Virus record (IMG/VR): IMGVR_UViG_3300001460_000272
Coordinates: 1 to 20,717 of that record
Origin: a virus
Reading direction: 5' to 3' (one strand)
DNA: 20,717 bases
Below the pieces are notes generated by a model, which was not told where the DNA came from, ran no database searches, and saw only the letters and a program-made list of their open reading frames with translations. A program made the position numbers and the translations under genes. Below, one piece after another: positions 4,500-18,039 of this stretch. The number at the start of each line of letters is the position of its first letter. The first letter of the stretch is position 1.

Positions 4500-4706
4500 A
4501 TGAGAGGAATAATCAATCAAGTAATACTCAGAGGAATCAAAGCAAACGATTCTCAAAGGAAGATAAAGCAAACACTAAAGAAGCTGCACAACATTACTAT
4601 TGCATCTGAGGTGTTTAAAACTCGCTACAATGCCATTAAATCAAGAATTAGCCAAGTACTACCCAAAGTTACTAAAGCTAGCAGAAAAGATAACAAAAGG
4701 AAATAA
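4500..4706 (+). CDS. Small basic hypothetical protein (68 aa) before the sigma-like gene
   Basis: The frame begins MRGIINQVILRGIKANDSQR and is strongly basic and helical, ending in a lysine/arginine-rich tail (TKASRKDNKRK). It is the first ORF after the structured leader. It overlaps the sigma-like gene by 77 bases in a different frame, an unusually long overlap here, so its last 25 residues are encoded by DNA also used for the sigma-like N-terminus. A small DNA- or RNA-binding protein is plausible. I recognise no family. Confidence 0.5.
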   Translation: MRGIINQVILRGIKANDSQRKIKQTLKKLHNITIASEVFKTRYNAIKSRISQVLPKVTKASRKDNKRK

Positions 4707-5160
4707 GGTTGATGCACTAGATCTGGTGCAAGACTTATATGTTATCATTTTAGAGTACGACCAAGAGAAAATTAAAAAGATAGTCGAAAACGGACATCTT
4801 GTTTTTTGGTCTGCAAGAGTTTTGATGAATCAGTATGTAAGGACAAACTCAGCATTTAAAACAAAATACTACACCAAGCTAAGAACGGAAAACTACGATG
4901 TTAAAAACTTCCAATACTTTGATGGTATTGAAGAGCTTGTAGAGTTCGAGAATAAGTTGCAGTTTGTTAAGGATAAGATGAACAACCTGCATGAGTACGA
5001 CAAGCTCCTGTTTGAGATTTACTTTAGTTCTGGAAAGAGCATTCGCAAATTAGCAAAGGATACCGGCATAAGTACCACATCGATATACACTACACTTAAA
5101 AACGTTAAACAATACTTGAAAGATGAAGTTGAGAGCGAGTACAAAGAATTTGAACGATAG
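4630..5160 (+). CDS. RNA polymerase sigma-70-like factor
   Basis: I chose the ATG at 4630 (product MPLNQELAKYYPKLLKLAEK..., 176 residues). The longer frame from 4600 adds residues that do not fit. The N-terminal part resembles sigma region 2: DALDLVQDLYVIILEYDQEK matches the helix seen as (D)L.Q(D/E)(V/T)F in ECF sigmas. The C-terminal part holds a region-4 helix-turn-helix, GKSIRKLAKDTGISTTSIYT, followed by LKNVKQYLK. The arrangement and size fit small phage sigma-like proteins of Bacteroidota phages. It would direct host RNA polymerase to phage promoters, perhaps the late genes that follow. The structured leader suggests controlled expression. Its last 38 bases overlap the zinc-binding gene. 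Confidence 0.68.
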   Translation: MPLNQELAKYYPKLLKLAEKITKGNKVDALDLVQDLYVIILEYDQEKIKKIVENGHLVFWSARVLMNQYVRTNSAFKTKYYTKLRTENYDVKNFQYFDGIEELVEFENKLQFVKDKMNNLHEYDKLLFEIYFSSGKSIRKLAKDTGISTTSIYTTLKNVKQYLKDEVESEYKEFER

Positions 5161-6211: not shown

Positions 6212-6542
6212 AAAGCGAATGCTCAAAGCGTTAAGCAGTTCATTGGGTATTGTTACTACTGCATTGAAAGCTGCTGACGTTGGAAGAGTAACATATTATG
6301 CATGGCTAAAGCAAGATGAAGAGTTTGCAAAGCAAGTAAAAGAAGTTGAGTCAATAGAACATGATTTTATAAGGTCTAAGTACTACGAGTGCATCAAAGA
6401 CAAAGTGCCTAGCGTTGTGATTCATGCAGCCAAAACTCAGTTAGGCTTAAATGAGAGGCAGCTTATTGATGTAACAACACAAGGCGAGAAGATTAACAAA
6501 ATAGAGATAGAGATTGTCAAGTCTAAAGATAAAGACGAGTAA
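6183..6542 (+). CDS. terS: Terminase small subunit
   Basis: The 119-residue protein begins with a helix-turn-helix: LGIVTTALKAADVGRVTYYA then WLKQDEEFAKQVKEVE. This matches the DNA-binding domain of phage small terminases, in which a short recognition helix (VGRVTYYAWL) is followed by F...V.E. The remaining helices would form the oligomeric ring that recognises the packaging site and passes DNA to the large subunit. It overlaps the HNH gene by 29 bases and the large subunit by 29 bases. Its identity rests on the helix-turn-helix and its place directly before the large terminase. Confidence 0.82.
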   Translation: MEQNRTKEAKKRMLKALSSSLGIVTTALKAADVGRVTYYAWLKQDEEFAKQVKEVESIEHDFIRSKYYECIKDKVPSVVIHAAKTQLGLNERQLIDVTTQGEKINKIEIEIVKSKDKDE

Positions 6543-7680
6543 CGTATTTGAGCGTAATTATAACGCACCTACAAAAATTGTAGTGAATCAAGGAGGGACA
6601 AGATCTGGAAAGACTTACTCACTTTGTCAACTTCTTATTGTCAAAGCATTTGAGAATACCGGCAAGAGATTCAGCATTGTTAGAAAGTCATTGCCTAGTC
6701 TTAAGCTCTCAGTCATGAAAGACTTTTTTGAGATACTGAGCAACCTAGATTTGTACAACGAAGCACATCACAACAAATCAGACCATACCTATACTTTAAA
6801 TGGTAACACATTTGAGTTTATATCTCTTGACCAACCACAAAAGAAAAGAGGTACAAAAAGACACTTCCTGTTTTGCAATGAAGCAAACGAATTAACTTGG
6901 GAGGATTTCTTTCAGCTAATCATTAGAACTGAGGAGAAGATATACATCGATTACAACCCATCTGACACACACCATTGGATATATGATAAGGTGCTAAGCA
7001 GAGAAGATTGTACGTTCATTAAATCAACGTATTTAGACAATCCATTTTTAGCTGATGAATTGGTTAATGAGATTGAAAGGCTAAAGCATACCGATGAAGA
7101 GTATTGGAAGATATACGGATTGGGAGAGCGAGGGTTCAGTAAGTCGATTATATTTAACAAGGTGCAGATTGTTGGAACGATTCCAGAAGATGCTAAAGAG
7201 ATTGCAATAGGTTTAGATTTTGGTTACACAAATGACCCTACTGCATTGATAGAAGTTTACGAGTACGAGGGTGCTTTAATATTTAACGAGCTGATATATG
7301 AACGAGGACTCACTAACCAAGACATTGCTAAGTCTTTACACAATTTCGGGATTGATAGACGAAGAGCTATTTACGGAGATTCTGCTGAACCTAAATCTAT
7401 CGAGGAAATATATAGACTAGGGTTCAATATAAAGCCTGCATCTAAAGGTAAGGACAGTATTAACATAGGGATTGATTTGCTCAAACGTTACGAGCTTAAA
7501 GTAACAAGCAAGAGTACAAACCTTATCAATGAGTTTAATAGCTACAAATGGCAGGAGGACAAGAACGGATACCTGCTGAACAAACCGATTGACAATTACA
7601 ACCATGCTATTGATGCAATCAGGTACGCAGTTATCATGACAAAGTCAAGACCAAACATCGGTCGATATTCTATTAAGTAA
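6514..7680 (+). CDS. terL: Terminase large subunit (packaging ATPase and nuclease)
   Basis: The 388-residue protein has both terminase domains. The ATPase has Walker A GGTRSGKT (about 27-34), Walker B HFLFCNEANE (about 117-126) with the catalytic glutamate after the acid/asparagine position, and the coupling motif IDYNPSD (about 144-150). The nuclease has GLDFGYTNDPTA (about 232-243) with the metal-binding aspartate, YGDSAEPKS (about 286-294) and NHAIDAIRYAV near the C-terminus. This is the PBSX-like Terminase_3 type. The start is TTG at 6514: the frame opens only at 6511 after a TAG, and no ATG occurs until well past the Walker A motif. The overlap with the small subunit supports translational coupling. 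Confidence 0.95.
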   Translation: MSSLKIKTSNVFERNYNAPTKIVVNQGGTRSGKTYSLCQLLIVKAFENTGKRFSIVRKSLPSLKLSVMKDFFEILSNLDLYNEAHHNKSDHTYTLNGNTFEFISLDQPQKKRGTKRHFLFCNEANELTWEDFFQLIIRTEEKIYIDYNPSDTHHWIYDKVLSREDCTFIKSTYLDNPFLADELVNEIERLKHTDEEYWKIYGLGERGFSKSIIFNKVQIVGTIPEDAKEIAIGLDFGYTNDPTALIEVYEYEGALIFNELIYERGLTNQDIAKSLHNFGIDRRRAIYGDSAEPKSIEEIYRLGFNIKPASKGKDSINIGIDLLKRYELKVTSKSTNLINEFNSYKWQEDKNGYLLNKPIDNYNHAIDAIRYAVIMTKSRPNIGRYSIK

Positions 7681-7729: not shown

Positions 7730-8332
7730 ATGAAAGTTATAATTCCACAAGACTTAAACGAGATTACTATAAAGCAGATGATTAAACTAGCTGATATTGA
7801 AAAGCTAGAGATTGACGAAGTTGAGAAAGCTAAAGAAGTTATTAAGCTCTTGGTTGATAAAGTAGACGATTCTAATATCAACAGAATTAAGGTGCTTGAT
7901 TTATTAGCCATGTACAAGAAACTTTGTGCAATGACTAACACCGAAACATCGTTAATCAAATTGGTAAGCATAGAGGGTGTTAAATATGGCTTCAATCCAG
8001 ATATTCAGAGTATATCAACAGGCGAGTTCATGGATATTGACATGCTTTGCAAAGACTTAGACAAAAACTTGCACATGATTATGGCAATCCTTTACAGGAA
8101 AGTTACAACTGAGGGCGAGGGTAAGTATCTGATTGAGGAGTACGATGCAAAGATAGATGAGAGGGCAAACCTATTCTTGAATAAGATGCCTGCATCAGTT
8201 GCACAAAGTTGCTTGGTTTTTTTTTATCGTTTAGGGAGGGGTTATTTGAGCGACACAATGGTGTCTTTACAGGAGGAGGAGAAAGTGAGTCAAGTGCAAA
8301 CTTCGGTAAACGATGGGGTTGGTATTCTGTAA
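7730..8332 (+). CDS. Probable tail assembly chaperone, short (unshifted) form
   Basis: The zero-frame product has 200 residues, starting MKVIIPQDLNEITIKQMIKL. It is helical, with the segment MDIDMLCKDLDKNLHMIMAI (about 102-121) and then FLNKMPASVAQSCLVFF (about 149-165). From memory, this series (IP..LNEIT...K...K.LHMI.A.L...MP......FF) resembles Bacteroidota phage proteins encoded in tail modules. At 8217-8225 the gene has nine T in a row, followed in the -1 frame by an open frame to 8454 (separate entries). This is how lambda G/GT and many siphovirus tail chaperones are made. It is the first gene after the terminase, preceded by a 49-base gap with a shared motif. The chaperone role is inferred from the frameshift architecture and position. 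Confidence 0.6.
   Translation: MKVIIPQDLNEITIKQMIKLADIEKLEIDEVEKAKEVIKLLVDKVDDSNINRIKVLDLLAMYKKLCAMTNTETSLIKLVSIEGVKYGFNPDIQSISTGEFMDIDMLCKDLDKNLHMIMAILYRKVTTEGEGKYLIEEYDAKIDERANLFLNKMPASVAQSCLVFFYRLGRGYLSDTMVSLQEEEKVSQVQTSVNDGVGIL
8218..8224 (+). other. -1 ribosomal frameshift site (T TTT TTT)
   Basis: In the chaperone frame the codons read GTT TTT TTT TAT, so T8218 followed by TTT TTT makes a perfect X XXY YYZ slippery heptamer. A slip of -1 continues at 8224 with TTA. A purine-rich AGGGAGGGG lies at 8233-8241. A small hairpin, GACAC/GTGTC with loop AATG, lies at 8252-8265, further from the site than usual for a stimulator. Confidence 0.65.
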
Positions 8333-8454
8333 TAATGATGTTGTGCAACGATGACATACTTAAAATGGATGCAGTAACAAAGCTCAACATAAACGAAACA
8401 CTAACATACATCTCTTATATTAAAGATAGGAACAAAGTAAATAAGAAGAAATGA
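8224..8454 (+). CDS. Frameshift extension of the tail assembly chaperone (long form)
   Basis: After the -1 slip the frame adds 76 residues, giving a long form of about 241 residues. The extension contains FGKRWGWYSVIMMLCNDDIL and then KMDAVTKLNINETLTYISYI. Its helical W-G-W-(Y)..I....DI.K.D.(V/I).(K/E) pattern resembles, from memory, C-terminal domains of tail chaperones. The main evidence that it is translated is its end: its TGA at 8452-8454 overlaps the next ATG at 8451 (ATGA). The unshifted frame would instead leave a 118-base gap in an otherwise gapless operon. An alternative is a sequencing or assembly error in the T9 run that split one gene. Confidence 0.6.
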   Translation, partial: LSFREGLFERHNGVFTGGGESESSANFGKRWGWYSVIMMLCNDDILKMDAVTKLNINETLTYISYIKDRNKVNKKK

Positions 8455-8909
8455 AAAGTTACATTGATATAGTAAATACGTTTAAGAAGATATGCGAGCA
8501 GCACCAACAAGTTAAAACCTTTACAACAGGAGATATTTTTGAGGCTGATTTAGAAACGCAAGACGTATTTACAAAGGTGCATTTAATCGAAACAAGTGCA
8601 TCAATTAACAAGACTACATTTACGTTTACTTTTGATTTGCTTGTTATGGATTTGGTCGATGCTGATGGTTCAGACCAAGATTTTGCTTTAAATAGAACAT
8701 TCTTAATACTAGCAGATATATATCGAGAATTTAGAACAGGAAGCTACTCAAATACATCAGCAGTAACGCAAAGCATAACGATGCCTGAGAGCTTGTCTTG
8801 TGAACCATTTACAGATAGGTTTGAGAACTTACTAAGTGGTTGGAAAGGTACATTCAACATAACTGTGCAAGCACAAAATTCTGCTTGTGAAACACCGATG
8901 AATCGATAG
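8451..8909 (+). CDS. Tail completion/terminator-like protein
   Basis: The 152-residue protein begins MKSYIDIVNTFKKICEQHQQ and has alternating strand-like segments: KTTFTFTFDLLVMDLVDADG (about 45-64), then ALNRTFLILADIYREF (about 72-87). This mix of an N-terminal helix, a strand pair ending in (L/V)MD.V, and an LADI helix resembles tail terminator or neck proteins of Bacteroidota siphoviruses. Such proteins cap the tail tube or connect it to the head. It starts in an ATGA overlap with the shifted chaperone frame and directly abuts the next gene. The specific role is inferred from fold-like pattern and position. Confidence 0.5.
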   Translation: MKSYIDIVNTFKKICEQHQQVKTFTTGDIFEADLETQDVFTKVHLIETSASINKTTFTFTFDLLVMDLVDADGSDQDFALNRTFLILADIYREFRTGSYSNTSAVTQSITMPESLSCEPFTDRFENLLSGWKGTFNITVQAQNSACETPMNR

Positions 8910-9446
8910 ATGGAATTTAAAGGAGAGAACTTATCTAAAGCCTTAAACAAGTTCGGTAAAAAGACTGTTGAGGTGGCTGCTGCAAATTTGCTGAGAAGCA
9001 AACGAGGGTACGATACAGGTAAGCTCCTTAAGTCTATTGATTATGATGTAGCGGTTACATTAAATGCATTCTCTTTAAAATTCAATTACGAAGATTATGG
9101 AGAGCAGATTGATAAAGGAAGAGGTAAGTCAAACAATTCACAAGGTGGGGTTGTTTACCAAAACATATTGGAGTGGGTTAAGCGTAAAAAGTTAAGACCG
9201 AGAAACTCCAAAGGACAATACGAGGCATGGAAGAACAAGACACAACAACAAAGGTCGATTGCTTTTCTAGTTGCCAGAAAGATTAACAGGTTTGGATATG
9301 AGGGTAACGGATTTTTTACCAACGCATTTAAACAAACATACAAGAAACTGCCTAAAGAAATTAAAAAGGCATACATGTTAGATTTTGAAAAGTTTATGAG
9401 TTTTACATTAGATGAAATAAAGACAAATGGCAACAACGGCAACTAG
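8910..9446 (+). CDS. HK97 gp10-like tail completion protein
   Basis: The 178-residue protein has the features of the HK97 gp10-like family. The N-terminal helix KALNKFGKKTVEVAAANLLR is followed by DTGKLLKSIDYDV (about 32-44), matching the family's (D/T)G.L..S(I/V) motif. A strand ending NYEDYGEQIDKGRG (about 60-73) matches the Y(G/A)..(I/V)(D/E).G turn. The C-terminal half is basic and contains GFFTNAFKQT, as in members whose C-terminus inserts in the neck. These proteins join tail tube and head. The start directly follows the previous stop, and the end overlaps the next gene by 20 bases. Confidence 0.65.
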   Translation: MEFKGENLSKALNKFGKKTVEVAAANLLRSKRGYDTGKLLKSIDYDVAVTLNAFSLKFNYEDYGEQIDKGRGKSNNSQGGVVYQNILEWVKRKKLRPRNSKGQYEAWKNKTQQQRSIAFLVARKINRFGYEGNGFFTNAFKQTYKKLPKEIKKAYMLDFEKFMSFTLDEIKTNGNNGN

Positions 9447-14030: not shown

Positions 14031-14179
14031 TAAACGAAGTTATAAGGTTGGTTACATCTAACCAGATCAAAGAAACGGAAGAGAACAAAGTATTGTTTGG
14101 AGCTTACAAATATCCAACATCTATAAAAGAAGCATGGCAACAATTTAAAAAAGAGATATGGCAGAAGAGTACAAACTAA
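14027..14179 (+). CDS. Small hypothetical protein (50 aa) between tail genes
   Basis: I choose the ATG at 14027, in an ATGA overlap with the large tail protein, over an in-frame start 81 bases earlier. The peptide begins MINEVIRLVTSNQIKETEEN, has a short aromatic stretch (FGAYKYPTS) and ends in a basic helix. It overlaps the tape-measure gene by 22 bases. Coupling on both sides supports translation. The function is unknown. Confidence 0.5.
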   Translation: MINEVIRLVTSNQIKETEENKVLFGAYKYPTSIKEAWQQFKKEIWQKSTN

Positions 14180-15831
14180 AACTTGTTGCTGATGTAGAAG
14201 CATTGCAAAAAAGTTTAGATGAGGTTAAGGAATCATTAGAGGAAAACGGCAAAGCAGCCGAAACATCTAACTCAAAACTAGCAGGAGGTTTAAAAAAAGT
14301 TGGTAAAGGATTTAAGGGTGTTGGGCTTGCCATGAAAGCGATGGGTATCGGTCTTGTGATTGAGGCATTCAATTTCTTGAAAGAGATAATGATGCAAAAC
14401 CAAACTGTTATTGATGGGGTTGCTATTGCAACTGAAACAATGGGAGTGTTATTTAATCAAATCACTAGTGTTGTTACTGATGTGTTTAATGCAGTAAGCA
14501 AATCTTCTGAGGGGTTTGAGGGCTTAAAAAAGGTTATAGGTGGTTTAATGACTATTGCTATTACTCCTTTAAAACTTGCTTTCTATGGTATTATATTGGC
14601 AGCTCAAGAGGCTCAATTAGCTTGGGAAGAATCTTTTCTTGGCGATAATGATCCTGAAACAATAAAGTTATTAAATGAAAAATTAGTTGAAACAAGAGCT
14701 AATTTAACAGAGGTTGTAGATGATGTTATTGTTGCAGGAGAACAAGTTGCAACAAACTTTGCAGAAGCAGTTGTAGAGATTGGTAATGTTGTTACAATAG
14801 CAACTAAGGTAGCAACTGAGGGTATAAAAGAAATATCTATTGAGTCAGCAACTGCAACAGGTACTGCTTTGGCAAATGCAAAGAAGAATGCTGAGTTGTT
14901 GGAAGTTCAAAGAGCAAAACAACAACTACAAAGCCAATTAGATGCAGAGTTGCAAAGACAAATAAGAGATGATGTTCGTAAAACATTCGATGAGCGTATT
15001 GCAGCTAATGATGAACTAGGTAGGATACTAGAAGAACAAACTGCTAAAGAAAAAGAAATAGTTGATGAACGAGTAAGGATTGCAGCTCTTGAATTATCTA
15101 CACAAAAAGATTCTATTGCATTACAAACTGCGTATGAACAAGCATTGCTTGAGCAATTAGACATTGAAGAAAGGATTGCAGGACAAAGGTCTGAGCAATT
15201 AACTAACCAAGCAGCTCTTGAGAAAGAATTAGACGAGGCAAGAAATGACATCAGGCTTTCAACAATGAGTGCTAGAGAGCAAGAACTTGAATCACTTACT
15301 CAAGAGTATAATCTTAAAATTCAGTTAGCTAGAAAAGCAGGAGCAAATGAACTTGCAATAACTAAGAAGTTTGAAGCAGATAAAAAGATACTAAGGCAGA
15401 ACTCAGTAAATGACCAACTAAGTGCAGCATCTCAACTTGCAGGTGCGTTAGGTGCATTAGCAGGAGAAAGTAAAGAGCTTGCTATTGCATCAGCAATAAT
15501 TGATACTTATGTAGGTGCAAACAAAGCATTTGCACAAGGAGGTACGTTAGGTTTTGTTACGGCAGCAGCAGTCATTGCAGCAGGTTTGGCAAACGTTAAA
15601 AACATAATGCAAACTGAGGTCAAAGGTTCAGGAGGTGGTGCATCAGCATCAATACCAAGTGCATCTCCAATAGGTAATACAATAGGTCAAGCAATACCTG
15701 TAAATGCTAACCTAAACGATTTAGTTAATCAAGGAAATGATACTCCTCCTGTGCAAGCCTATGTAATATCACAAGAAGTAACAGATTCACAAGAAGCAGA
15801 TTTATACATTAAAACTCAAACTGTATTATAA
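14158..15831 (+). CDS. Tail tape-measure-like protein (557 aa)
   Basis: The N-terminal 50 residues are charged and helical (LKLVADVEALQKSLDEVKES). A hydrophobic glycine-rich region follows (KGVGLAMKAMGIGLVIEAF, about 54-72), with another at ITPLKLAFYGIILAAQEAQ (about 138-156). Then comes a long coiled-coil zone, about residues 245-430, rich in E, A, Q, K and L. The end is alanine- and glycine-rich with a proline/serine tail. This layout, with membrane-active hydrophobic segments inside a long helical protein in a tail module, is that of a tape-measure protein, which sets tail length and helps DNA entry. At 557 residues it would specify a fairly short tail. Its stop overlaps the protease start (TAATG). 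Confidence 0.75.
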   Translation: MAEEYKLKLVADVEALQKSLDEVKESLEENGKAAETSNSKLAGGLKKVGKGFKGVGLAMKAMGIGLVIEAFNFLKEIMMQNQTVIDGVAIATETMGVLFNQITSVVTDVFNAVSKSSEGFEGLKKVIGGLMTIAITPLKLAFYGIILAAQEAQLAWEESFLGDNDPETIKLLNEKLVETRANLTEVVDDVIVAGEQVATNFAEAVVEIGNVVTIATKVATEGIKEISIESATATGTALANAKKNAELLEVQRAKQQLQSQLDAELQRQIRDDVRKTFDERIAANDELGRILEEQTAKEKEIVDERVRIAALELSTQKDSIALQTAYEQALLEQLDIEERIAGQRSEQLTNQAALEKELDEARNDIRLSTMSAREQELESLTQEYNLKIQLARKAGANELAITKKFEADKKILRQNSVNDQLSAASQLAGALGALAGESKELAIASAIIDTYVGANKAFAQGGTLGFVTAAAVIAAGLANVKNIMQTEVKGSGGGASASIPSASPIGNTIGQAIPVNANLNDLVNQGNDTPPVQAYVISQEVTDSQEADLYIKTQTVL

Positions 15832-16487
15832 TGAAAAAGAAAGACGAAGAAAAGCGTAAAAAAAGAAAGTACGATAAAATGAAATTAGTTGAGTTCGTGC
15901 TTAACGAGAATGATGCAGATGTTGGTGTCTTTGCTATTAGCTTAGTTGAAGATCCTGCAATAGAAGAAAACTTTATGTATTTCTCTAGATCTGGCAAGCC
16001 TCAGAAGTTTGCAACATTAAACGATGAGAAACGTATTGTCATGGGTGCAGTAATGATTCCTGATATGCCTATATTAAGAGTTGATGCAGAGGGCGAAAAG
16101 TACAACTGCTTCTTTAGTAAGGAAACAATACGCAGAGTTGAGGAACTTTACATGATTAATAGCAAACATCAATCTGCTACTTTAGGACATGAGAGAGCAG
16201 TTAACGGAGTTACCACAATCGAAACTTGGATTGTAGAAGATTCAAAGATTGATAAGTCAGCTTTGCATGGGTTTAATTATCCTGTTGGAACTTGGGTTGC
16301 TTGCATGAAGATTGAGAACGAAGATGTTTGGAGCAACTATATAAAAGAGGGCGAGGTTAAAGGTTTCTCTATTGAGGGCTACTTTGATACTAAAGAATCT
16401 GAGGGCATTAAAATGGAGAAAGAAGATGTATTAAGTAAGCTCAGACAAATCATCAAGGATAGCGAAAATAAAACAAACAAAAAGTAA
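15831..16487 (+). CDS. Prohead protease, XkdF-like serine protease
   Basis: The 218-residue protein begins with a basic stretch; an internal ATG at 15879 is an alternative start, but 15831 lies in a TAATG overlap. FAISLVEDPAIEENF (about 34-48) and IVMGAVMIPDMPILR (about 69-83) match the start of XkdF-type proteases. The likely catalytic histidine is in TLGHERAVNG (near 120), followed by IETWIVEDSKID, PVGTWVACMKIENEDVW and GEVKGFSIEGYF with the probable catalytic serine near 180. The family processes scaffold and capsid during head maturation. It sits directly before a scaffold-like protein and the major capsid protein, which fits that role. Confidence 0.85.
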   Translation: MKKKDEEKRKKRKYDKMKLVEFVLNENDADVGVFAISLVEDPAIEENFMYFSRSGKPQKFATLNDEKRIVMGAVMIPDMPILRVDAEGEKYNCFFSKETIRRVEELYMINSKHQSATLGHERAVNGVTTIETWIVEDSKIDKSALHGFNYPVGTWVACMKIENEDVWSNYIKEGEVKGFSIEGYFDTKESEGIKMEKEDVLSKLRQIIKDSENKTNKK

Positions 16488-16499
16488 ACCTATTTAATA
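16485..16499 (+). repeat. Shared intergenic motif TAAACCTATTTAATA, copy 2
   Basis: This is an exact second copy of the 15-base motif at 7713-7727. It starts at the protease stop codon and lies in the 34-base gap before the scaffold-like gene, ending 22 bases before its ATG. Both copies are preceded by an ACAA-rich stretch ending in AGT or AAGT. See the finding for interpretation. Confidence 0.35.
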
Positions 16500-16521
16500 G
16501 AATAGAAACAAACCCTAGAAA

Positions 16522-17139
16522 ATGGAAGCATTAGACAAAATCAAAGAACTTTTGGGTATGGTAGAAGTGGTAAGCGAAAACGAACCTACACCTGCTGAAT
16601 TATCTGAAGCAAAAGAACATTTAAAATTCGAGGAGGCAACTTTAGAAGATGGTACTATTATAAGTGCAGATTCTTTTGATATTGGTAACGAGGTGTTTAT
16701 CGTTGTAGAAGATGAGCGTCAGCCAATGCCTGTTGGAGAGTATGTTTTTGCTGATGGTACTTTGCTAGTAGTAGAGGAAGAGGGAGTTATTGCTCGTATC
16801 GGAATACCTGAAGAAGAGGTTGTTGAGGAAGTAGTTGAAGATTCAAAAACTGAAGAACTCAGCGAAGCAAACACCGAAACAAAAGACGCATTAGTGCAAG
16901 CGATTGGAGTGCTAGAGAATTTAGTACAGGAATTTGCAAGCATTAAAGAAGAGTTCAATACTTTGAAAACTGCAAAAGAAGAGGCAGTTGCTAAAGTTGA
17001 AGAGTTCGAAAAAGTAGGCGAGGAGATAACTCCAAGTCCAGAGGGAAAGACAACAGGAACTAAATCAATGGTTGAGTTTTCTAAGTTATCCCCACAAGAA
17101 AGAGTTCAATATTTAATTAATAAAAACCAAAATATTTAA
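16522..17139 (+). CDS. Scaffold-like acidic protein upstream of the capsid
   Basis: The 205-residue protein is strongly acidic. The first half holds a small beta domain: FEEATLEDGTIISADSFDIG, a strand ending NEVFIVVEDE, GEYVFADGTLLVVEEEGVIA. Its (T)L.DGT.I.....(D/E)(I/V)G...V...(G)(E)Y.L.DG....V...G.I..I pattern recurs, from memory, in Bacteroidota phage capsid-neighbour proteins. An acidic linker (EEEVVEEVVEDS) follows, then a coiled coil (about 125-165) and a short C-terminal region with LSPQERVQYLINKN. Coiled coil, acidity and place between protease and capsid fit a scaffolding protein; the beta domain might instead act in capsid decoration. It is separated from the capsid gene by three bases. 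Confidence 0.6.
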   Translation: MEALDKIKELLGMVEVVSENEPTPAELSEAKEHLKFEEATLEDGTIISADSFDIGNEVFIVVEDERQPMPVGEYVFADGTLLVVEEEGVIARIGIPEEEVVEEVVEDSKTEELSEANTETKDALVQAIGVLENLVQEFASIKEEFNTLKTAKEEAVAKVEEFEKVGEEITPSPEGKTTGTKSMVEFSKLSPQERVQYLINKNQNI

Positions 17140-17142
17140 GAA

Positions 17143-18039
17143 ATGGCAGATTCGTATACTAAACTGTACGCAGGGAAAGCGGCAGCAGGGTTTATGAGTG
17201 CATCTCTACTAAGTGGAGAAACACTTGCAAAAGGATACTTGACTGTGTTACCAAACGTAGCATTTAAAGTAAACCTAAACAATTTTAATTTAGCAGCAGC
17301 AGCAGTAGCAGATGCAACTTGTGATTTTACAAGTGCAGGAGATGTTACTTACGTTGAGAAAGCTCTTGCACCAAAGCGTTTACAAGTAAACAGAGCATTG
17401 TGTAAAAACGATTGGCTTTCAACTTGGGCAGGTGCAAACATGAGAGCAGGTTTAGATGGTACTTTACAATCTGACTTCGCAACTTACTTAATCTCTTATG
17501 CAGGTTCTTTAGTAGGGCAGCAAGTAGAGAAGTCAATTTGGCAAGGTGCAGCAGCAACAGGTGGAGAGTTTGATGGATTCCAAGCGTTACTTACTGCCGA
17601 TGGTGGTGCAGATGTAGGAGCAGTTGTAGGTGGTATCAATGCAGGAAACGTAATTGCTGAAATTGGTAAAGTTCGTGATGGAATTGCAGACGCAGTTTAC
17701 GGACAGGATGACTTATGTATCTTTATGGGTACGGCAGCATTTAAACATTACATCTCAGCTCAAGCAGCTTTAGGTTACTTAAACCAATACCATGCAGGTG
17801 TAACTGAGTCAAACTTTGAGGGTATTCCAATTAAGTGGTGTCCGGGTATGGCAGCTAACGTAATGGTAGCAGGTCGTAAATCTAACATGTTCTTTGCAAC
17901 AGACTTAGAGGGAGATATGACTGAGGTAAAACTACTTGACCAAACTATAATTGATGGTTCAGATAATGTTAATCTAGTAATGAAGTTCAATGCAGGTGTA
18001 GGTTACTCTACTCGTGCAGACATCGTTCTTTACGCATAA
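17143..18039 (+). CDS. Major capsid protein, HK97-fold
   Basis: The 298-residue protein has no visible internal coiled coil, consistent with a separate scaffold upstream. The C-terminal half carries YISAQAALGYLNQYHAGVTE, then SNFEGIPIKWCPGM and GRKSNMFFATDLEGD. This series (EG(I/V)P(I/V)....GM....(V/M)(A)....(N/L)(F)(F)(A)TDL) is typical of HK97-fold capsid proteins of Bacteroidota phages. The N-terminal arm lies ahead of ALAPKRLQVNRALCKNDWLS, a block characteristic of the same group. Its codons are unusually regular, for example many GCA and GCT alanine codons, which fits high expression. The gene follows the scaffold after three bases. Confidence 0.88.
   Translation: MADSYTKLYAGKAAAGFMSASLLSGETLAKGYLTVLPNVAFKVNLNNFNLAAAAVADATCDFTSAGDVTYVEKALAPKRLQVNRALCKNDWLSTWAGANMRAGLDGTLQSDFATYLISYAGSLVGQQVEKSIWQGAAATGGEFDGFQALLTADGGADVGAVVGGINAGNVIAEIGKVRDGIADAVYGQDDLCIFMGTAAFKHYISAQAALGYLNQYHAGVTESNFEGIPIKWCPGMAANVMVAGRKSNMFFATDLEGDMTEVKLLDQTIIDGSDNVNLVMKFNAGVGYSTRADIVLYA

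Follow-up and report, generated by a model that had tools for sequence, protein, structure and literature searches.

A conserved T9 tract joins two overlapping frames of a probable tail assembly chaperone gene in Bacteroidota phages: a case for RNA-polymerase slippage

The window analysed here is a stretch of 20,717 nucleotides from a phage of marine bacteria (IMG/VR record IMGVR_UViG_3300001460_000272, positions 1-20,717), and the features of the locus are collected in Table 1. Gene X contains the codons GTT TTT TTT TAT at 8216-8227, read in the frame of its ATG. A slip of -1 near the end of this T run would join the first 165 residues of X to the 76 residues of a second domain, M, giving a fused product X-M of 241 residues, while without a slip X stops at 200 residues and 118 bases (8333-8450) stay uncoded. 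The earlier note on this DNA had described the slippery heptamer, the -1 frame open up to a TGA overlapping the next ATG, the 118 non-coding bases behind the unshifted stop at 8332 and products of 200 and about 241 residues; on re-reading, the coordinates and sizes proved correct throughout. Runs of nine T's are not unusual as such (at 35% GC, 0.63 are expected per window on the + strand), and the evidence has to come from conservation of the run in relatives. A second T9 at 1205-1213 lies between the ORFs 866-1183 and 1234-1884 and is not coding.

Table 1. Features at and around the X-M locus of the window
Feature	Position	Strand	Remarks
Terminase large subunit	6514..7680	+	directly upstream of X; PF04466, E 4e-29
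Gene X, 0-frame product of 200 aa, G-like	7730..8332	+	residues 1-165 precede the shift; phrog_32199
-1 frame ORF	8209..8454	+	open throughout; TGA at 8452-8454
T9 run, putative shift/slippage site	8217..8225	+	nine or ten T's in every intact relative
In-frame T_TTT_TTT heptamer, possible ribosomal -1 site	8218..8224	+	read from sequence
Domain M (T-like), 76 aa, within the -1 ORF	8224-8451	+	conserved in relatives
Overlap of the 0-frame tail with the -1 ORF, doubly coded	8226..8332	+	both frames
ATGA stop-start overlap, M / next gene	8451..8454	+	same overlap in most close relatives
Next gene, 152 aa, function unknown	8451..8909	+	stop-start coupled to M
Tail completion / Neck1-like protein	8910..9446	+	phrog_5, E 1.2e-7
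Tape-measure-like protein	14158..15831	+	matches tape measure protein of Cellulophaga phage phi46:1

X-M lies upstream of the tape-measure-like gene but not adjacent to it, with four genes in between, just as had been claimed for its place in the tail module. The order terminase, X-M, tail genes is kept in distant relatives. Phage phi46:1, which has the related tape measure, carries a different gene at the position of X-M. Head genes are found downstream of the tail genes, with an XkdF-like protease (15831) and a capsid-like protein (17143) in the stretch 15831-18039, and of the window's proteins ten were scanned, none of which was recognised as a portal. At the other end of the window, a protein at 4600-5160 is placed like the sigma-70 region 2 gene of phage P12024S, and one at 396-875 resembles the DnaA C-terminal domain, as judged by eye.

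Relatives were collected from IMG/VR scans (with X, the next gene and alignments), from the cultured phages P12024S and P12024L and from whole bacterial genomes, and their similarity extends from near-identical to the edge of what profile searches detect. The run-length set comprises 266 loci, forming 94 groups at <90%, 44 at <70%, 20 at <50% and 13 at <40% protein identity; some loci are one contig retrieved twice. M stands in the -1 frame of X in all 261 intact loci that have both domains. The run is T9 in 254 of these and T10 in the other 7, a run of eight T's or fewer being absent among the intact loci of the 266-locus set. T10 arises in two separate places of the tree, and in both the -1 relation of the frames is kept. 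The bacterial-genome loci all have T9 (7/7), and the run is also present in strongly diverged bacterial-genome loci at 0.40-0.43 GC. In three fragmentary loci X is broken upstream of the site: L024 and L029, which are one contig, at the contig start, and L062 upstream of position 1030, with the T9 still present.

The two frames also carry the marks of coding sequence. M is kept in 22 aligned relatives, down to about 25% identity, and its raw pN/pS is 0.27 beyond the 0-frame stop and 0.36 overall, compared to 0.22 for X and 1.47 for the unused third (+1) frame in the overlap. In the 0-frame tail after the slip, the first ~20 residues (FF[YW]x[LI]GxxL) look conserved, with a raw pN/pS of 0.58. 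These values indicate that M is under purifying selection, and conservation of both frames supports both predicted products, X and X-M. A sequencing or assembly error, or a phase-variable tract in what is one fused gene, had to be considered, because homopolymers are error-prone and hypermutable and because relatives with a single ORF exist. The same T9 and the same -1 relation recur, however, in independent assemblies, in two cultured phages and in bacterial genomes, and no relative of the T9 group has its frames fused by T8 or T10, which makes this explanation very improbable. Chance or error as the origin of the second frame is ruled out by the -1 relation at all loci, the run length and the pN/pS values; judged by this comparison of sequences, the second frame is neither an error nor an accident, and both the frame change and the link to the following gene are real and ancient. 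The comparison of the T run and of both downstream frames in related phages, which the earlier note had proposed as a check, has thus gone in its favour, and the stop-start coupling that it described is strongly supported. A T8 or T10 run fusing the frames had been named there as a refutation; the T10 runs seen here do not amount to one, as they leave the frames -1 apart.

In more distant phages a single ORF covers both X and M, and therefore the X-M fusion is a real protein. One continuous X-M protein is found in Flavobacterium phages FPSV-F7 and laban6-1, Cellulophaga phage Ingeline_1, Polaribacter phage Leef_1 and Microcystis phage Mea-Yong924-1, so that the groups with a single ORF include Duneviridae, Helgolandviridae and Microcystis phages; X-M aligns with the single-ORF proteins with an hhalign probability of 98.3% over 230 columns. 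The Duneviridae (FPSV-F7, laban6-1, Ingeline), Leef_1 and Mea-Yong924-1 thus resemble the window phage in having the whole X-M protein and differ from it in reading it from one continuous frame. In FPSV-F7, the one single-ORF relative that was read base by base, the T9 is absent from the X-M junction. On these alignments X-M is one protein, made from one ORF in some phages and, in the T9 group, via a frame change. The Nonlabens phages P12024S (gp38/gp39) and P12024L (gp40/gp41) belong with the latter: their X and M are homologous, with the same T9 and the same -1 layout, but unlike the presentation here they were deposited as two separate hypothetical proteins each.

Flavobacterium phage 6H appeared to offer an alternative heptamer (T_TTT_TTC), which was rejected; 6H is locally altered, because its near-identical relatives have one open frame. 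Its single-ORF relative of X-M (locus L274, 10352-10927, minus strand) is truncated from about residue 186 on by a local difference in sequence, and in the near-identical phages FPSV-F7, 23T and 2A it is intact. In the bacterial genome G024, positions 1221-1794 (locus L286) encode, in a single ORF, a protein of 191 residues that matches the M domain weakly and lacks a T run.

What could this protein be? X corresponds to phrog_32199, a family of unknown function (E 2e-15), and M has no match to a family of known function in Pfam, PHROGs or PDB sequences; no known chaperone gave a significant sequence match to X or M in the same three collections. Residues 1-165 of X are predicted confidently by AlphaFold2, with a pLDDT of 88.8, and M is predicted, less confidently, as all-helical with a pLDDT of 77.7. 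Neither a Foldseek search of the X fold against the PDB (no significant match) nor a fold search with M (no match) pointed to a relative. The best of 461 structural comparisons with X was the HK97 tail assembly chaperone 2OB9 (Z 3.7, 62 residues, 3.2 Å), which is below the noise guide and hence below a meaningful level, so it can be taken as a hint only. On the other hand, the layout is that of the chaperone genes, with two overlapping ORFs, a frame change near the end of the first and a short and a long product predicted. Because of its place in the tail module, the two-product layout and a single-ORF relative near a tape measure (in the siphovirus Ingeline (PMC8776804) it precedes the annotated one by two genes), we consider it quite probable that X/X-M is a tail assembly chaperone. 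Such genes usually stand directly before the tape measure, and the lack of adjacency here speaks against the assignment. Of the assignment to G/GT-type chaperones made in the earlier note, the architecture and the context therefore stand, while the matched families bring no known function and the fold comparison stays at the level just given.

The two products could instead be real and have another job in the tail or in head-tail joining. Such a role would fit the missing family assignment, the position of X directly after the terminase rather than after a major tail protein and one weak match to a head-tail adaptor family (phrog_4931, E 0.03). It accounts less well for a two-product -1 layout in a tail module, for the single-ORF relative two genes before a tape measure and for a tail chaperone being the best, though weak, of the 461 fold comparisons, and we regard it as unlikely.

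The T run itself is under closer constraint than a heptamer would require. Its eighth T is both the third base of a 0-frame Phe codon and the first base of a -1 Leu codon, so a change of T8 to C is silent in both frames. Elsewhere in the gene, roughly one in four to one in three comparable positions carry C, yet T8-to-C is seen in 0/35 lineages at <70% identity (given that codon use, P is about 2e-6 to 2e-5), and the codons at the site are TTT for the 0-frame Phe in 68/68 and TTR for the -1 Leu in 64/64. Since synonymous sites are near saturation, with dS in X about 1.3 already for pairs of 70-92% identity, the lineages are close to independent. The ninth T is likewise constant, though the 0-frame residue that it begins varies among Tyr, Trp, Cys, Ser, Phe and Leu.

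Losses at the start of the run are compensated at its end. Four lineages have lost the first T, codon 163 being GCT, GGT or ACT and not GTT or CTT, and in all four the fourth codon is TTG, so that the run is shifted by one base and is still exactly nine. A T at that position of the fourth codon is found in 4/4 of these lineages vs 1/40 others (Fisher P 4e-5). The T8 intermediate, with the consensus TGG or TAY as fourth codon, would keep the heptamer and both proteins, and it was never seen among these loci. The run is thereby kept at nine across three codon phases. Elsewhere in these phages such runs are avoided: the other genes hold 1 run of T>=9 vs 10.0 expected and 5 of A>=9 vs 39.8 expected, the avoidance setting in at 8-9, whereas in-frame T7 is fairly common (45 seen vs 77 expected). 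Rare T9 runs do occur inside other ORFs of related phages: one (L142, 6210) lies close to the ORF end, and at another (L202, 4258) the frame stays open past the run. Avoidance of long A/T runs in other genes could also be explained by replication slippage. Taken as sequence patterns, the silent position and the compensated losses show selection on run length, for at least nine T's, beyond the T_TTT_TTT heptamer.

Nine is the length known for slippage of bacterial RNA polymerase. In vivo, runs of nine A's or T's give efficient slippage (PMC5009743), Tn with n>8 has been tied to transcriptional realignment (PMC3711429), and A/T runs of nine are selected against in many bacterial genomes, with an onset at nine (PMC1088944). 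Because selection for at least nine T's coincides with this length, polymerase slippage is favoured, and we hold it likely that the RNA polymerase, rather than the ribosome, does the slipping. According to this scheme, the faithful mRNA would yield the short form X. A slip of the polymerase on the T9 tract that inserts one extra U would result in a net -1 frame, and ordinary translation of this mRNA would run into M and give the long form X-M, ending at the ATGA where the next gene starts. As in programmed transcriptional slippage, an A/T run of at least nine is present at the frame junction and its length is selected regardless of codon phase.

The rival view is a classical programmed -1 ribosomal frameshift on T_TTT_TTT in a tail chaperone, as in lambda G/GT, with the extra T's kept by amino-acid needs or to raise slip efficiency. 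An in-frame heptamer of the X_XXY_YYZ type (T_TTT_TTT) is indeed present in all intact loci, but it is implied by any T9; codon 163 and the fourth codon (codon 4) are partly fixed by hydrophobic or aromatic residues, and the mechanism is established for tail chaperone genes (PMC5009743). Against it stand the doubly silent T8-to-C change that is never used, the compensation of run length across codon phase and the tolerance of in-frame T7 in other genes of these phages. What a ribosomal -1 slip requires is the seven T's of T_TTT_TTT, not nine, and at the last of these, Z, another base is tolerated. There is also no downstream structure signal: a conserved downstream stem-loop or upstream hairpin was rejected for want of folding-energy support, the mean folding z of pseudoknot-free structures being about 0 in 60-nt windows from -180 to +180 in 32 lineages, which indicates no conserved stimulatory RNA structure within that scope. 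Some known -1 ribosomal frameshift sites do without a 3' stimulatory structure. We regard the ribosomal frameshift as the less probable mechanism, though one of some weight. The earlier note had proposed a ribosomal slip on the heptamer; the heptamer is always there, while selection for at least nine T's points to RNA-polymerase slippage. Run-length selection and the transcriptional reading are additions to that note, and from the sequences the mechanism is more likely transcriptional than it held.

Frame changes in tail chaperone genes are widely conserved among tailed phages and are generally taken as ribosomal. To our knowledge, every known tail chaperone shifts by the ribosome, and a literature search, with most subscription journals outside its reach, found no report of transcriptional slippage in a tail chaperone. 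Like lambda G/GT and other chaperones with a programmed frameshift, X/X-M would combine a short product with a rarer -1 fusion, here predicted from sequence, and like lambda G/GT it lies in the tail module upstream of the tape measure. It has no detectable sequence relation to lambda G/GT, which has a mixed heptamer in place of a T9 run, and unlike it X/X-M follows right after the terminase, with four genes between X-M and the tape measure. The closest parallel to the proposed route is Shigella mxiE, where insertion of a nucleotide at a U run fuses two overlapping ORFs into a longer protein (PMC1088944); mxiE is an unrelated bacterial regulator, whereas X-M is a phage morphogenesis gene whose mechanism we infer. 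Thermus thermophilus dnaX and IS elements similarly use a nine-base A/T run as slip site to set a two-product ratio, but slippage in Thermus dnaX gives the shorter product, unlike X-M, and the genes are unrelated.

Taken together, we moderately favour the view that X/X-M is a tail assembly chaperone pair of Bacteroidota phages whose long form arises via RNA-polymerase slippage on T9. The T9 tract is unchanged while the X and M proteins have diverged beyond ordinary similarity search, and we infer that the X : X-M ratio matters for tail assembly. It is an even question whether polymerase slippage, instead of ribosomal frameshifting, is how these Bacteroidota phages, a large and ancient group, set the ratio between their two chaperone forms. 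If the slip is made in transcription, what is conserved would be the product ratio and not the ribosomal step, as seen for dnaX. Polymerase slippage and a ribosomal frameshift predict different RNA. An unannotated gene family, made up of phrog_32199 and the M ORF that is filed apart from it, would also receive a name across Bacteroidota phages of marine and fresh waters, and annotators would gain a simple rule, namely to fuse the two ORFs at T9.

A conserved TTTAGG directly behind the run, which places a stop in the +1 frame, was considered as a guard against wrong slips and rejected. It is better explained by 0-frame Leu/Ile-Gly, because in lineages that have TATCGG the early +1 stop is gone and Ile-Gly is retained.
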